Shown here piece by piece: positions 7,372 to 56,274 of a stretch of DNA of 64,000 bases (position 1 is the stretch's first letter; every line of letters starts with the position of its first letter). Source of the DNA: Lysobacterales bacterium (GTDB lineage Bacteria; Pseudomonadota; Gammaproteobacteria; Xanthomonadales; Marinicellaceae); the NCBI GenBank assembly GCA_027067055.1, contig JAMOMK010000104.1:123572-187571 (forward strand), written 5' to 3'. The notes beneath the pieces are model-generated. The model did no database searches and was not told where the DNA came from. It worked only from the letters and a program-made list of their open reading frames with translations. A program made the translations under genes and the position numbers.

Positions 7372-9849
7372 ATGAAAAGACTGTTTAAAATCTTGTGGTT
7401 TTTTACAAAACTGGGCTTGTTTTTTGCTATTTTAGGCATTGCAACTCTGTATATAACCTACAAAATAATGGAAAAGGACTTGCCATCAGTTGAGTCTATT
7501 CGCGAATATAAATTACAAGTACCACTAAGGGTTTATTCCAAAGACGGCAAATTAATCCGTGTTTTTGGTTCAAAACGACGTTCTCCTGCAGCCATAGAAG
7601 ATGTACCACAACATTTGATTAATGCTTATATTGCTGGCGAAGATGCCAACTTTTACAACCATTATGGTGTTGATCCAAAAGGGTTGTTTCGAGCCGTATG
7701 GGAACTTATAACCACAGGACATAAAAAAACAGGTGGTTCAACCATCACCATGCAGTTAACAAGAAATGTCTTTTTAACCTTAAAACAAACCTATACACGT
7801 AAGCTCAAAGAAATATTTCTTGCAATTAAACTAGAGCAAACCATCACTAAAGATGAAATATTAGAGCTGTACTTAAATAAAAATTTCTTGGGTCATCGTT
7901 CATATGGCATTGTTGCGGCGGCTGACATGTATTATGGCAAAAAGCTCAATGAGTTAACTCTAGCAGAGTGTGCCATGTTGGCAGCACCTCCAAAAGCACC
8001 ATCAACTATCAATCCTATTACCAACCCTGAACGAGCACTTAAACGCCGCAATTACATCTTGCGTCGCATGTTGGAATTGGATTATATTAGCCAAGAACAA
8101 CACGACCAAGCGGTGGCAGAAGAAGACACTGCACAAAAACATGAGCCAGCTATCGAACTCAATGCCCCTTGGATAGCAGAAATGGTTCGTGCTGAAATGT
8201 TAGAAAAATATGGTGATGGCATTTATACCGACGGTTATGTCATTACTACCACCATAGATTCAAAGTTACAACAAGCAGCAGAAGTCGCCGTTCAAAAAGG
8301 CTTACAAGTATACGATAAACGTCATGGTTACCGAGGTGCGATTAAGCATTTTGAGATAGACACAAATAGTGAAACAAGTACTGAAGAATCAATTAACACA
8401 GCATTAGAATCAATCAAAAGCTTGCCTACAACAGCTGGCTTACAAGCAGCATTAGTGACATTTATTGAAAAAGAATCCATGATAGTTCGACTTCTAGATG
8501 GACAAGATGCAGTTATTCAATTTGAGGCCTCCAAATGGGCTGCACCCTATATTAGTAATAAAAAAGTAGGTGACAAACCAAAGAGTATGAATGACATAAG
8601 CCAGTTAGGTGATGTTGTAATGGTGAAACGAGACGAGTCTGGTGATTTTGTTTTAGCTCAAATACCTCGAGTACAAGGGGCGCTAATATCTTTAAACCCC
8701 AATAATGGAGGCATTAATGCTCTGATTGGCGGATTTGCCTTTAACTTAAGTAAATTTAATCGTGTAACGCAAGCCAAAAGACAACCAGGTTCTGGCTTCA
8801 AACCATTATTGTATTCAGCTGCTATTGACGCTGGCTTAACCGCTTCGACCTTAATCAATGATGCTCCCATTGTATTTGATGATAAGTTGCTCGAAGATAC
8901 TTGGCGACCACAAAATGCCAACATGAAATTTCTAGGGCCAATACCATTACGCGAAGGCATTGTTCATTCTAAAAACCTTGTTTCAATTCGTGTACTCGAA
9001 CGCATTGGCATCGACAAGGGCCGAAACCACATGCTGAAATTTGGATTCAACCCTGAGGACATTCCTCGCAATCTATCTATTTCATTAGGTACACCAAATA
9101 TTACACCACTAGAAATGTCTCGTGCATTTTCTGTTTTTGCAAATGGTGGCTACCTCATCAAGCCTTACTTAATAGAAACAATCACCAATCAAAATGGAGA
9201 ACTTCTTTTTCAACAACCCAAAGTTATCTTATGTGATGACTGCCAAGAACAGTTAGCGGAAGAAACAAAAGAACAAATCACAATTGAAAGAAATGAAGAA
9301 AATAACAATAAAGAAAATGTACCCAATTCTTCTGTTTTAAAGGATGAACCTGAGATTATTTACCCTCCACGTATCATTAGTGCTGCCAATCAATTCATCA
9401 TAGAGTCATTTATGAAAGATGTGGTTAAACGAGGAACGGGTTACAAAGCCATGGCACTCAAAAGACATGACCTAGCGGGAAAAACAGGCACAACAAACGA
9501 TCAACGCGATGCATGGTTCAACGGCTTTCAACGCAATATTGTCACCCATGCTTGGGTTGGCTTTGATACACCAGAGGAAATGGGCCGTGGTGAATATGGT
9601 GGGAAAGTTGCCTTACCTATTTGGATTGACTTTATGCGGGTTGCACTTGATGGCGTACCAGAGTATCAACGCCCCATCCCTCCAGGAATTATTGCAGCAA
9701 AAATCAACCCAAGCACAGGGAAACTAGCCGCACCAGGCAAAAGCAACACCAAAATGGAATATTTTCTTGTAGGTCATTTACCAGAAGAAGAAAGTACCGA
9801 AACTCAAGCAATTGAATTAGATACAGAAACAGAGGATGATTTATTTTAG
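7372..9849 (+). CDS. mrcA: Penicillin-binding protein 1A
   Basis: A class A bifunctional peptidoglycan synthase of 825 residues anchored by one N-terminal membrane helix (about 12-35). The GT51 glycosyltransferase domain (about 55-235) has the catalytic Glu90 in 'GEDANFYNH' and 'GGSTITMQL'. An OB-like insert follows (about 310-430). The transpeptidase domain has Ser474-x-x-Lys477, Ser533-Lys-Asn535 and Lys704-Thr-Gly. A charged insert (about 625-665, rich in E/N/K) precedes the KTG box, and the C-terminus is acidic. lpoA nearby encodes its expected activator. Confidence 0.95.
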   Translation: MKRLFKILWFFTKLGLFFAILGIATLYITYKIMEKDLPSVESIREYKLQVPLRVYSKDGKLIRVFGSKRRSPAAIEDVPQHLINAYIAGEDANFYNHYGVDPKGLFRAVWELITTGHKKTGGSTITMQLTRNVFLTLKQTYTRKLKEIFLAIKLEQTITKDEILELYLNKNFLGHRSYGIVAAADMYYGKKLNELTLAECAMLAAPPKAPSTINPITNPERALKRRNYILRRMLELDYISQEQHDQAVAEEDTAQKHEPAIELNAPWIAEMVRAEMLEKYGDGIYTDGYVITTTIDSKLQQAAEVAVQKGLQVYDKRHGYRGAIKHFEIDTNSETSTEESINTALESIKSLPTTAGLQAALVTFIEKESMIVRLLDGQDAVIQFEASKWAAPYISNKKVGDKPKSMNDISQLGDVVMVKRDESGDFVLAQIPRVQGALISLNPNNGGINALIGGFAFNLSKFNRVTQAKRQPGSGFKPLLYSAAIDAGLTASTLINDAPIVFDDKLLEDTWRPQNANMKFLGPIPLREGIVHSKNLVSIRVLERIGIDKGRNHMLKFGFNPEDIPRNLSISLGTPNITPLEMSRAFSVFANGGYLIKPYLIETITNQNGELLFQQPKVILCDDCQEQLAEETKEQITIERNEENNNKENVPNSSVLKDEPEIIYPPRIISAANQFIIESFMKDVVKRGTGYKAMALKRHDLAGKTGTTNDQRDAWFNGFQRNIVTHAWVGFDTPEEMGRGEYGGKVALPIWIDFMRVALDGVPEYQRPIPPGIIAAKINPSTGKLAAPGKSNTKMEYFLVGHLPEEESTETQAIELDTETEDDLF

Positions 9850-9886
9850 AAGGTTTTTGTTACATTGCATCATTAACCGTGATTTT

Positions 9887-9935
9887 TGTGACACACATCA
9901 CAGTTTTGTGAAGATTGAATTCTATAATATAGTGA
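9887..9935 (+). promoter_or_regulatory. CRP-type site with a -10 box at class II spacing
   Basis: Positions 9887-9902 read TGTGA-N6-TCACA, the exact palindromic CRP consensus. A perfect TATAAT lies at 9923-9928. With +1 at 9935 or 9936 the site centre falls at -40.5 or -41.5, the spacing of class II CRP-activated promoters, and no good -35 hexamer is present, as expected for activator-dependent promoters. There is no start codon for a long ORF until 10123, beyond a terminator. Confidence 0.65.
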
Positions 9936-10030
9936 GTTGTAATAACTTTGAATGGAACCCCATTCCCTATTAGTTTCATTTGAAATATGACTGCATTAAA
10001 AGGCTACTTCCACACACGGTAGCCTTTTTT
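9935..10030 (+). ncRNA. Candidate CRP-activated small RNA, about 95 nt
   Basis: The transcript predicted from the promoter just upstream would run to the T-run of the terminator at 9998-10030. It contains a 5' hairpin (arms 9950-9955 and 9960-9965, loop of four), a single-stranded A/U-rich middle and the terminator stem. No ORF of useful length is seen in it. This is an inference from promoter plus terminator geometry; no known sRNA family was recognised. Confidence 0.45.
9998..10030 (+). terminator. Rho-independent terminator
   Basis: The arms 9998-10007 and 10019-10028 pair perfectly over 10 bp around an 11-base loop and run into T6. It lies 148 bp after the PBP1a stop, so it may end the mrcA mRNA as well as the short transcript proposed here. 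Confidence 0.85.
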
Positions 10031-10122
10031 CTTGCCTAAAATTAGCTTAAATCATCCAATGACACAAGTTATTCTCAACCAATGTGATAAAATCGGCAAA
10101 TTATTATTTTCACACCATTCAA

Positions 10123-10689
10123 ATGCAAAAACAATCCAAAAATAAACTCACCCTTATCGCCCTAGCTTTTCTCTTTATCACGCCAGTTATTGTTGCAATA
10201 ATAATGAATTCCAAACTTATCAACTACTCACCAGAATCATTTAAAAACTACGGTAATTTCATCAAGCCTCCTGTAAAAATAACTGGCAAAAAAAGTCTAA
10301 AACCTTTTGAAGAATTCTGGACGGTTATTTATGCGCACACGGGAAGCTGCGATGATGCTTGCATGCAAATGCTAAACACATTGTATAGAATTCGCTTAAC
10401 CAAAGGGCACAAAATGAAACAAGTCAAGCTGCTTGTTCTACACCCTGAAGCCGATACATTATCAATTCCTGAACAGTACACTTCAATTGAACAGCAATCT
10501 TATGCAGCCACTGATGAATTAAACTCTGTTTTATCTAAACTTTCACCACAATCATTAGGTGAGGGTAACGGCTTGTATCTACTAGCTCCCGAAGGGTTTC
10601 TTATGATGTCTTATCCAAAAGATTTTGAACCCCGAGATGTGATTAAAGACTTAGGTTTGTTATTACGTGCACGAAAAAATAACGGTTAA
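10123..10689 (+). CDS. Membrane-anchored SCO-like thioredoxin-fold protein
   Basis: A 188-residue protein with one N-terminal membrane helix (about 9-27) and a periplasmic domain with C76-x3-C80 in 'TGSCDDACMQML'. That spacing is the copper-binding motif of SCO1/SenC/PrrC proteins, which help build the CuA centre of cytochrome c oxidase. The conserved distal His is not obvious, so copper chaperone function is inferred mainly from the motif and from the nearby ctaA-ctaB genes. I start at the ATG 10123, which puts the helix at the N-terminus; an in-frame GTG at 10084 adds 13 residues. Confidence 0.7.
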   Translation: MQKQSKNKLTLIALAFLFITPVIVAIIMNSKLINYSPESFKNYGNFIKPPVKITGKKSLKPFEEFWTVIYAHTGSCDDACMQMLNTLYRIRLTKGHKMKQVKLLVLHPEADTLSIPEQYTSIEQQSYAATDELNSVLSKLSPQSLGEGNGLYLLAPEGFLMMSYPKDFEPRDVIKDLGLLLRARKNNG

Positions 10690-12621: not shown

Positions 12622-13535
12622 GTCATAACACTTCCAAATTCAGTCAATACCTTGAGTTAACCAAACCTAAAGTGGTATTGCTTATAGTTTTTACCGCATT
12701 AGTCGGCATGCTATTATCTGTTGATAATGGTTTACCGCCTTTTGATAAAATGTTTTTTGGTCTTATTGGCATCGGCTTTGCCGCATCATCTGCCGCTGCT
12801 ATTAACCACTGGGCAGATCAAAAAATTGATGCCATCATGTTACGTACCCAACACAGGCCATTGCCACAGGGCGATTTATCTGACACCAATGTAATTATTT
12901 TTGCTTTTATCTTGTGTGCTATTGCGATGGCAGTTTTAGTTATAAAGATAAATATGCTCACCGCAGTGTTGACCTTCTTATCCTTAATTGGTTATGCCTT
13001 TATTTACACCTTTTTTCTCAAGCGTATTACTCCACAAAATATCGTTATTGGAGGTGCTGCAGGTGCTGCTCCTCCAGTATTAGGTTGGACAGCAATTACA
13101 GGTAACTTAACAGGTGACGCTCTGTTGTTATTTGGCATCATCTATCTATGGACACCTCCACATTTTTGGGCATTGGCAATCCATCGCGTAGAAGATTATG
13201 CCAAAGCTAAAATTCCCATGTTGCCAGTTACTCACGGAATACAACATACTTGGTTGCACATGGTTTTTTATACAATTTTGTTATTTTTACTCAGTGTTTT
13301 TCCTTACTTAGTCGGCATGAGTGGTTGGGTTTATTTGATTGGAGCTATTATTCTGGGCGCACGTTTTTTACAACTAGTCTGGCAAATGCGTACATCAACT
13401 GACCCAATGCTTCCTTGGAAAGTATTTAAATTTTCAATCTGGTATTTAATGATTTTATTTGCCTTATTAATTATTGATCATTATCTACCCGTACATGAAT
13501 TCAATCAAAAGGTCTTTCATTCGCCATTGTTATGA
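12618..13535 (+). CDS. ctaB: Protohaem IX farnesyltransferase CtaB/CyoE
   Basis: Adds the farnesyl group to haem B to make haem O, the substrate of CtaA. The 305-residue UbiA-family protein has about nine membrane helices. The first Asp-rich loop is 'NHWADQKIDAIMLRTQHRPLP' in form, i.e. Asn-x3-Asp-x3-Asp with the TxxRPLP end, and the second loop is 'DYAKAKIPMLPVTHG'. It is translationally coupled at both ends: ATGA with ctaA and again with the following zeta-like gene. Confidence 0.95.
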   Translation: MSHNTSKFSQYLELTKPKVVLLIVFTALVGMLLSVDNGLPPFDKMFFGLIGIGFAASSAAAINHWADQKIDAIMLRTQHRPLPQGDLSDTNVIIFAFILCAIAMAVLVIKINMLTAVLTFLSLIGYAFIYTFFLKRITPQNIVIGGAAGAAPPVLGWTAITGNLTGDALLLFGIIYLWTPPHFWALAIHRVEDYAKAKIPMLPVTHGIQHTWLHMVFYTILLFLLSVFPYLVGMSGWVYLIGAIILGARFLQLVWQMRTSTDPMLPWKVFKFSIWYLMILFALLIIDHYLPVHEFNQKVFHSPLL

Positions 13536-14113
13536 CAAAACCAACGTGTATAATAATTGCAGGACCAAATGGAGCAGGAAAAACAACCTTTGCTTTAGAT
13601 TATCTGCCACAAGTAGCGGGGTTTGATAACTTTATCAATGCAGATTTAATTGCATCGGGTTTATCGCCTTTATCACCAGAAAAACATTTATTAACGGCAA
13701 GTAAACTGTTCTTAAAAGAGGTGTACAAGGTTATTGAAGCCAGAGAAGATGTTTCTTTTGAAACAACCTTATCAGGAAAGTCATACCTGAAACTTATACG
13801 TAAATTAAAAAACAATGGTTGGGAAGTAGAACTAATTTATTTGTATTTACCATCAGTTCAGTTATCCATCAATAGAGTGGCAGAACGCGTTAAACATGGT
13901 GGTCATGACATCCCAAAAGAAACAATTATTCGCCGTTATCCACGGAGCCTGGACAATTTAGTAAATCATTATGCTAAACTATGCGATACAACCATTTGTT
14001 TAGACAACTCAAATCAACAGCAAAACATTATATTTTCGCAGAACTTTGAACTTAGGCAAATACAAAATGACAAACTCTATCAACAACTATTAAATAATAT
14101 AGACAATGAATAA
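13532..14113 (+). CDS. Zeta-toxin-like P-loop kinase
   Basis: A 193-residue P-loop protein with Walker A 'AGPNGAGKTTF' (residues about 10-20), 'FINADLIASGLSP', 'SFETTLSG' and a basic lid 'RRYPRSLDNL'. This is the pattern of the Zeta/AAA_33 group, whose toxic members phosphorylate UDP-N-acetylglucosamine. It overlaps ctaB by four bases and is itself overlapped by a 57-residue ORF. The genetic pairing suggests a toxin-antitoxin module or a housekeeping kinase captured in the haem operon; toxicity is not shown by the sequence. Confidence 0.75.
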   Translation: MTKPTCIIIAGPNGAGKTTFALDYLPQVAGFDNFINADLIASGLSPLSPEKHLLTASKLFLKEVYKVIEAREDVSFETTLSGKSYLKLIRKLKNNGWEVELIYLYLPSVQLSINRVAERVKHGGHDIPKETIIRRYPRSLDNLVNHYAKLCDTTICLDNSNQQQNIIFSQNFELRQIQNDKLYQQLLNNIDNE

Positions 14114-24833: not shown

Positions 24834-24945
24834 TTAAACTCACTGTGAACTGTTTCACACATTTAGAGTCAAATAACTTCCACCCTATATTTTTTACATC
24901 ATATAATTTATATTTATAGGTAATCATTAACTTATAGAAGAATCA

Positions 24946-55521: not shown

Positions 55522-56274
55522 TTGTCCACTTTATTTCAATCAAACTTAATCGTAAAAGATTTTAAAACAAAGATTCCTGAATCAAGGTGTCAATTATGTG
55601 CCGTCAATTCCATTTGCCTGCCTTCTGGATTGTCAAAAACAGAGCTTTGTGAACTTGAAAGCATTATGACCACATCAAAAGTTGTTGAAAAAAATGTTCA
55701 ACTTTTTAATGATGGGGAGCAATTTCATTCTCTCTACATTGTTCACTCTGGCATGTTTAAAAATAGCTCCCTAGATGAAAATGGCAAAGAACGTATTCTT
55801 CGCTTTTCTCTTCCTGGTGAAATAATGGGACTAGATGGCATTCATGCTGAAAGCTATCAATCTACCGCTATTGCACTAACAACCAGTTCCTATTGTAAGA
55901 TTCCATTTAACCAACTATTGGATGTCTCTGAAGAATTTCCCATTATTCAGAGGAATTTATTGAAAATTATGAGTAAAGAGATTTACTCAAACAAAAAAAC
56001 CTATATTGATTTGGGCAGTACCGCAAAACTGGCTTTATTTATTTACAATATTTCTCAACGATTTAAAAACAGAGGCTACTCAGAAAAAGAGTTCTACCTG
56101 CCAATTTCACAACGAGATATAGCCAACTATTTAGGAATGGCAGAAGAAACATTGAGTCGTATTTTTAAGAAATTACAAAAACTTGGAGCTGTTAATTATA
56201 AAAAACATATTCTCACCATACTCAACAAACAACAACTTAAAGAAATAGCACAACTAATCAGTGCAAGTGAGTAA
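55522..56274 (+). CDS. fnr: FNR/ANR-type oxygen-sensing regulator
   Basis: A 250-residue Crp/Fnr regulator. The [4Fe-4S] ligands are C23, C26, C32 and C125, which is the E. coli FNR pattern (C20, C23, C29, C122). The cAMP-fold sensor (about 40-150) is followed by the dimer helix and an HTH with Glu-x-x-Ser-Arg ('MAEETLSRIF'), which reads TTGAT half-sites. The start is a TTG with no clear Shine-Dalgarno. It faces the cco operon, whose promoter has the matching box. Confidence 0.95.
   Translation: MSTLFQSNLIVKDFKTKIPESRCQLCAVNSICLPSGLSKTELCELESIMTTSKVVEKNVQLFNDGEQFHSLYIVHSGMFKNSSLDENGKERILRFSLPGEIMGLDGIHAESYQSTAIALTTSSYCKIPFNQLLDVSEEFPIIQRNLLKIMSKEIYSNKKTYIDLGSTAKLALFIYNISQRFKNRGYSEKEFYLPISQRDIANYLGMAEETLSRIFKKLQKLGAVNYKKHILTILNKQQLKEIAQLISASE

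Follow-up and report, generated by a model that had tools for sequence, protein, structure and literature searches.

Positions 9887–10030 of the window (the whole stretch of DNA analysed, 64,000 nucleotides) raise the question of whether the space after mrcA holds a gene of its own and, if so, what drives it and what its product does. A preliminary description, made from the letters of the window, had proposed a CRP-controlled small RNA gene built like Spot 42 or CyaR. The locus was analysed by promoter anatomy, RNA folding, covariance modelling and comparison across its genus, family, order and class. 9887–10030 is very probably a real gene, and the comparison gives good support to reading it as an sRNA gene of its own with a CRP-type class II promoter; kinship with Spot 42 or CyaR found no support, and the catabolite link, part of the same proposal, is unproven.

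Anatomy of the transcription unit

The upstream gene mrcA (PBP1A family, PF00912/PF00905) stops at 9849, and the downstream frame, orf2, spans 10084–10689 with a conserved ATG at 10123. The mrcA of the window has named relatives at 74–91% identity in seven MAGs, of which three carry the label Lysobacterales, three Alcanivoracaceae and one Gammaproteobacteria. All features between them described here lie on the forward strand. The exact CRP palindrome of the preliminary description is present as a CRP/Clp-type site, TGTGACACACATCACA, at 9887–9902. Its 3' end is followed after 20 nt by a TATAAT -10 box (9923–9928), and its centre lies 40.5 bp upstream of the predicted start, A9935, so that the class II distance and the purine start were read correctly. 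A -35 box was likewise rightly called absent; the best candidate agrees with TTGACA at 1 of 6 positions. The arrangement (TGTGA-N6-TCACA near -41.5, a -10 box, no -35 box) is that of a class II promoter. Composition alone is unremarkable: exact palindromes number two in the window, and sites with up to 2 mismatches number 32, fewer than in shuffled sequence (mean 40.8). The site at 9887–9902 was therefore accepted because it is conserved. The second exact palindrome, TGTGAACTGTTTCACA, was found at 24844–24859.

The candidate RNA (9935–10030, about 96 nt) is delimited by the predicted start and by fold and conservation. It is predicted to form an outer stem (9935–9941 with 9986–9992) around a covarying hairpin (9947–9984; arms 9947–9958 and 9973–9984) that carries the C-rich loop CCCCATTCCCTAT (9958–9970), the proposed target-pairing site; in the predicted fold the loop appears as CCCATTCCCTATTA, with one more C before. 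An intrinsic terminator follows at 9998–10030, in which 9998–10008 pairs with 10018–10028 around a loop of 9 and the T-run occupies 10025–10030. The distance from A9935 to the end of the T-run is 96 nt, in agreement with the strong terminator placed earlier at about 95 nt. It was not listed by the automatic terminator scan, which admits loops of 3–8. The folding energy of 9935–10031 was -22.6 kcal/mol versus -13 in shuffles, and the fold was better than that of 200 of 200 shuffles (z -3.5).

Frames starting with ATG within the RNA were inspected for a short peptide gene. The longest has 12 codons and is confined to the window's species (G000); an 11-codon frame, MT.LKGYFHTR, recurs in 5 of 10 genus loci (G000, G003, G004, G007, G009). 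The frame is absent or different in the other five and runs through the terminator hairpin, the pairing of which explains its conservation, and a peptide gene is accordingly very improbable.

Conservation, fold and genomic setting

The locus was recovered in six relatives by DNA similarity search (E 4.3e-7 or better), and the copy in G010 was located from the sequence upstream of orf2. A covariance model, R1, was built from eight transcripts without their promoters, the training loci having been obtained either through DNA similarity or through their place ahead of orf2. R1 matched 10 of 11 genus genomes (E 4e-23 to 3.5e-6), 8 of which were training genomes and two of which, G001 and G002, were not; there was no match in G005, a genome 74% complete. 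In all ten loci the loop CCCCATTCCCTAT is invariant and the CRP site is found at the same place and distance, with 0–1 mismatches, so that the conservation sought for 9887–10030 was found. CCCCATTCCCT occurs exactly once per genome in the 10 genus genomes, always within the RNA gene. The RNA begins with AGTTGT in 8 aligned genomes and AATTGT in G001, and this 5' end and the loop are among its most conserved parts.

The promoter was also tested by anchoring on the predicted transcript start alone and looking through the 75 nt before it for the closest match to a CRP site, at 11 loci (10 of the genus and that of G017, of a sister genus). The best match had 0 mismatches in 8 of 11 loci and 1 in the remaining 3, and its centre lay 40.5 nt upstream of the start in 9 of 11 and otherwise 41.5 or 43.5 nt. 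Aligned with the window, seven relatives have the centre at -40.5 or -41.5. In the 8-species alignment TGTGA and TCACA are fully invariant and the -10 box is invariant at 5 of 6 positions; the spacer between them is not invariant except for two T.

RNAalifold gave 28 pairs, 6 of them with double changes, a number reached by 5 of 500 shuffles; the covariation score was 0.293 versus 0.213, and 0 of 500 shuffles reached 0.293. Further pair types were not above shuffles (364 of 500). These statistics were computed on 7 distinct rows. In the alignment 94.7% of cells pair, falling to 41–56% when slid by 1–3 columns. Native stem arms had a mean energy of -16.5 kcal/mol versus -8.2 for arms swapped between species (21 loci), although in individual genomes as many as 5 arms from other species gave stronger pairing than the native one. 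Because the sequences are few and related, the covariation is taken as support for the hairpin, not as proof.

Gene order was then set against two readings in which the RNA is part of a neighbouring gene. In the genus, the RNA lies between mrcA and orf2 in five genomes, between other genes and orf2 in three, and at another locus in G001 and G002. The first reading, raised already in the preliminary description as a possible refutation, is that the locus is nothing but the 3' end of mrcA, a terminator beside a chance CRP site. With mrcA upstream in 5 of 10 genomes (G000, G003, G004, G007, G009), the terminator may well serve in those genomes to end mrcA read-through too; promoter, hairpin and terminator nevertheless persist in G001, G002, G006, G008 and G010, where mrcA is not upstream. 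In G001 and G002 a different penicillin-binding protein, about 36% similar, lies about 1 kb downstream of the RNA. Because five genomes without upstream mrcA keep the gene, mrcA was rejected as the sole explanation, and the chance that it suffices is remote. The second reading makes the RNA a CRP-driven 5' leader or attenuator of orf2, with hairpins controlling read-through into orf2 ahead of ctaA and ctaB. Orf2 does lie just downstream in 8 of 10 RNA-bearing genus genomes, but G001 and G002 carry the RNA and orf2 on different contigs, the RNA among other genes, and in sister genera it is located elsewhere. An extended -10-like element, TGTGATAAAAT (10083–10093), is a possible separate promoter of orf2, and the exact TGTGNTAAAAT was present in 5 of 10 orf2 loci scanned. 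A leader of orf2 is thus quite improbable, and the RNA is treated below as a separate gene. Orf2 itself gave a weak match to the PA0111 family (28.9 bits versus a cut-off of 230) and is followed by a glutamine amidotransferase on the other strand and then by ctaA and ctaB. The last codon of ctaB is overlapped by a small frame for a Zeta-toxin-like kinase (13532–14113; PF06414, 47.6 bits versus a cut-off of 22.3).

Outside the genus, G017 gave a weak R1 match (24.1 bits, E 0.04) with the CRP site and spacing in place. A pattern joining the promoter to CCCC matched 9 of 18 genomes of sister genus g3 and 2 of 3 of g4, and overall 21 of 33 family genomes versus 1 of 33 for the reversed control; the genomes without a match were 9 of the 18 in one sister genus, one of three in another and the only genome of a fourth. 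When folded, the 11 sister-genus loci give a hairpin of some 9 to 14 pairs whose loop is C-rich, and after it a terminator hairpin; the pattern required neither structure, so the folds count as support. The 9 g3 loci are no test of the promoter, since they were found through it. Their loops have other sequences that are still C/pyrimidine-rich, giving three genus-level versions (CCCCATTCCCTAT; ACACACCCTTTCCCCC; CCCATCCCTCCCCATTCCCT). R1 was run on five sister-genus loci and matched three at the RNA (24–31 bits), leaving two unmatched; two further matches in that run were to something other than this RNA. Common descent of the genus and sister-genus RNAs is likely, not proven. Within about 4 kb upstream, the g3 copies have groEL (5 of 9) or rpoH (4 of 9), with adk downstream in 8 of 9 (each gene named from one representative), and both g4 copies have groEL upstream.

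A stricter pattern (CRP site, 20–22 nt, TANNAT, CCCNNNCCC) matched 17 of 398 order genomes, all within the family, and its reversed control gave no match among the matches listed; among the 365 genomes of the order that lie outside the family, none matched the C-loop pattern. Within the genus the loose CCCC pattern had three additional matches, at G000:C121, G000:C132 and G007:C436, of which G000:C121 was folded and lacked such a hairpin and terminator. Across 299 order genomes R1 gave E up to 0.1 in 25, 15 of them outside the genus; the outside matches look like terminator matches (the CCCATTCC core was sought in five loci, and the surrounding sequence was read in seven). A class-wide pattern search (369 genomes) matched five genomes, the reversed control one; the matches in G326 and G415 do not fold into the hairpin-terminator build. 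In one distant genome of the class (G517:C76, L177) two tandem copies begin at 1249 and 1501, each made up of a CRP site, TANNAT, a hairpin bearing TTTCCCCCATAGG and then a terminator. The pair is flanked by a phosphoglycerate-kinase-like gene, from which one frame of 320 codons separates it, and by a pilT-family gene. In G309:C178 (L174), from 1501, a CRP-site promoter is followed by two hairpins with terminator loop ACCCTCCTCCTCCCACC; this locus fits the build only partly, having a short first hairpin and its C-rich loop in the terminator. Neither the G517 copies nor the G309 locus had an Rfam match at gathering score.

The loop and comparison with known small RNAs

The loop keeps a CCC-AUU-CCC character and stays in the loop while the stem changes around it, which argues for a function of the loop in pairing or binding. 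A rival local hairpin, formed by the loop folding onto its own stem (GAATGG/CCATTC, 9950–9965), is possible in G000 and could hide the loop in that species.

Places with up to 1 mismatch from AGGGAATGGGG numbered 178 versus 88 for the reversed control in 11 genomes, own antisense copies included; G005 showed no excess over the control. Inspection covered 87 of these places (17 in G000, all non-self; 14 in G009, 16 in G004, 20 in G008 and 20 of 26 in G010), and no convincing shared target emerged among them at this near-full complementarity. Ten clusters of places were common to species, one in three genomes and nine in two; judged by eye without gene annotation, none fell at the start region of a shared gene on the sense strand. 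The result thus bears on near-complete pairing, and on some of the matching places.

A sponge for an RNA-binding protein, like the Csr/Rsm RNAs, would leave the gene as described and change the role of its loop from mRNA pairing to titration. Such a role would fit the strong conservation of loop and 5' end, the lack of a target among the 87 places of 5 genomes, and loops that differ between genera yet stay C/pyrimidine-rich. Known sponges repeat their binding site, however, whereas the RNA of the window has a single such loop. In sX13, loops rich in C act on G-rich mRNAs (PMC3771888), and a sponge appears unlikely beside mRNA pairing.

At gathering score Rfam gave 0 matches across the window; with the limit relaxed to E 10, 9850–10083 gave 12 sub-threshold matches, the best at 21.7 bits versus a cut-off of 51.4. 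The preliminary description had itself seen no homology to Spot 42 or CyaR. The likeness to CyaR and Spot 42 that it drew is limited to CRP-family control of an intergenic sRNA: this RNA matches neither, does not lie beside polA and has a C-rich loop, a distinctive element that resembles sX13. Spot 42, moreover, is repressed by CRP, whereas the promoter here has activator geometry.

The closer comparison is with sX13 (RF02232), an Xanthomonadaceae sRNA of the same order, of about 100–115 nt and with its own terminator. Both RNAs have stable hairpins with C-rich loops (CTCCCATCCCCTGG in sX13, CCCCATTCCCTAT here, CCCCATCCCTCCCCCATTCCCT in the sister genus). C-rich loops of sX13 act on G-rich motifs near start codons, with mutants and reporters as evidence (PMC3771888), and sX13 does so independently of Hfq. 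In the window, by contrast, the RNA has two hairpins with C runs in the first loop only, as against three C-rich loops in sX13, and it lies between mrcA and orf2, not downstream of polA. At polA, RF02232 matched all 8 genomes tested from a neighbouring family of the order, but none of the 4 tested from the window's family (L323–L326: G013, G000, G008, G020). Given sX13 in that neighbouring family, the order is taken as Lysobacterales/Xanthomonadales, and the window's family is presumably Marinicellaceae. None of the 8 sX13 loci had a CRP-type site with up to 2 mismatches between polA and the RNA (520 nt after polA). RF02232 gave no match in the window, none at E up to 10 in 9850–10083, and, with a limit of E 3, none in four loci from sister genera, one outside locus and the L163 RNA region. 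This RNA is not an sX13 member, because three defining features were tested and none was found; homology was rejected by R1 (0 matches in 8 sX13 loci) and by RF02232. By analogy, it nonetheless probably works like sX13.

More distant designs share the C-rich character. RsaE/RoxS of Firmicutes belong to a different phylum and have a different promoter; they are alike in being C-rich sRNAs of metabolism, and have no Rfam match in the window. Alphaproteobacterial ar14 has apical C-rich motifs, but neither it nor related C-rich-loop sRNAs match this RNA, the ar14 model scoring 28.6 versus a cut-off of 58.8 on an sX13 locus only. Apical C-rich motifs are also described for the alpha-r7 family (PMC3771888). 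The gene is a conserved sRNA gene in no Rfam family, one that varies existing designs and does not found a new class. For the combination of a CRP-family promoter and a C-rich-loop sRNA in one gene, no published case was found in listings of the open-access literature.

The candidate regulator and the meaning of the gene

Four proteins with an HTH_Crp_2 domain were found in the G000 genome. One, encoded on contig C132, passed the NCBIfam CRP model NF008732 (294.2 bits versus a cut-off of 266) and is the only one of the four that was scanned with it. Among solved structures the chain closest to it is 3iwz (named 'catabolite activation-like protein'; E 1.5e-71; 54% identity over 210 residues), which we take to be Xanthomonas Clp, ahead of Vfr (8e-66) and CRP (about 1e-61). 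Control by a CRP-type protein is likely. Another of the four (HTH_Crp_2 domain at window 56026–56247) has N-terminal cysteines that look FNR-like and is presumably an Anr/Fnr regulator, so that the site might be bound by FNR/Anr or another CRP/FNR protein. FNR-type half sites are TTGAT/ATCAA and CRP-type ones TGTGA/TCACA, and those at 9887–9902 are TGTGA/TCACA; among the four proteins the C132 protein carries CSREMAGRVLK, which we take to be a CRP-like recognition helix, and it passes the CRP model. A regulator other than a CRP/Clp protein is distinctly unlikely on these grounds, and the C132 protein is retained as the candidate.

E. coli CRP has S83 at the position of Clp E99. Xanthomonas Clp, a c-di-GMP receptor, loses DNA binding on c-di-GMP (PMC6637768), and a list of its ligand and DNA residues (D70, E99, R150, R154, D162, V165, R166, D170, R195) was drawn from the same paper. 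The C132 protein is identical at 5 of these 9 (E99, R150, R154, R166, D170) and substituted at the others (E for D70, G for D162, A for V165, K for R195). Class I adenylate cyclase (PF01295) was found in 0 of 9 family genomes; among 14 controls only E. coli matched. With the candidate regulator nearest to a Clp-type protein among solved structures, though passing the CRP model, and with PF01295 at 0 of 9, 'catabolite' control is doubtful, and the description of the RNA as catabolite-linked is unproven. The switch signal may, on weak indications, be c-di-GMP rather than cAMP.

A mechanism can be proposed on this basis. A CRP-family protein of CRP/Vfr/Clp type, the C132 protein, would bind 9887–9902 and, as anatomy and conservation suggest, activate RNA polymerase at this class II promoter, which lacks a -35 box. 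The RNA of about 96 nt would end at its own terminator and hold its C-rich sequence open on the long stem that covariation supports. By analogy with sX13, the loop would most likely pair with G-rich stretches at the ribosome-binding sites of several mRNAs and block their translation. A stand-alone, trans-acting sRNA gene, activated by a CRP-family protein and pairing through a C-rich loop with G-rich ribosome-binding regions, is the reading we hold to be moderately probable. More tentatively, and on balance doubtfully, the RNA may serve the whole family as a riboregulator: a Clp-like CRP protein, with c-di-GMP and not cAMP as its gating ligand, would drive a C-rich loop against ribosome-binding sites; the RNA would replace sX13 in a family without sX13 at polA, and similar CRP-driven C-loop RNAs would have arisen elsewhere in the class (the twin copies of G517, perhaps one in G309).

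The gene joins two known designs, the CRP-family promoter and the C-rich-loop sRNA. Its three genus-level loop versions amount to a natural experiment on which letters of the loop matter, and it offers a concrete candidate for a route from a second messenger to post-transcriptional control in the order.
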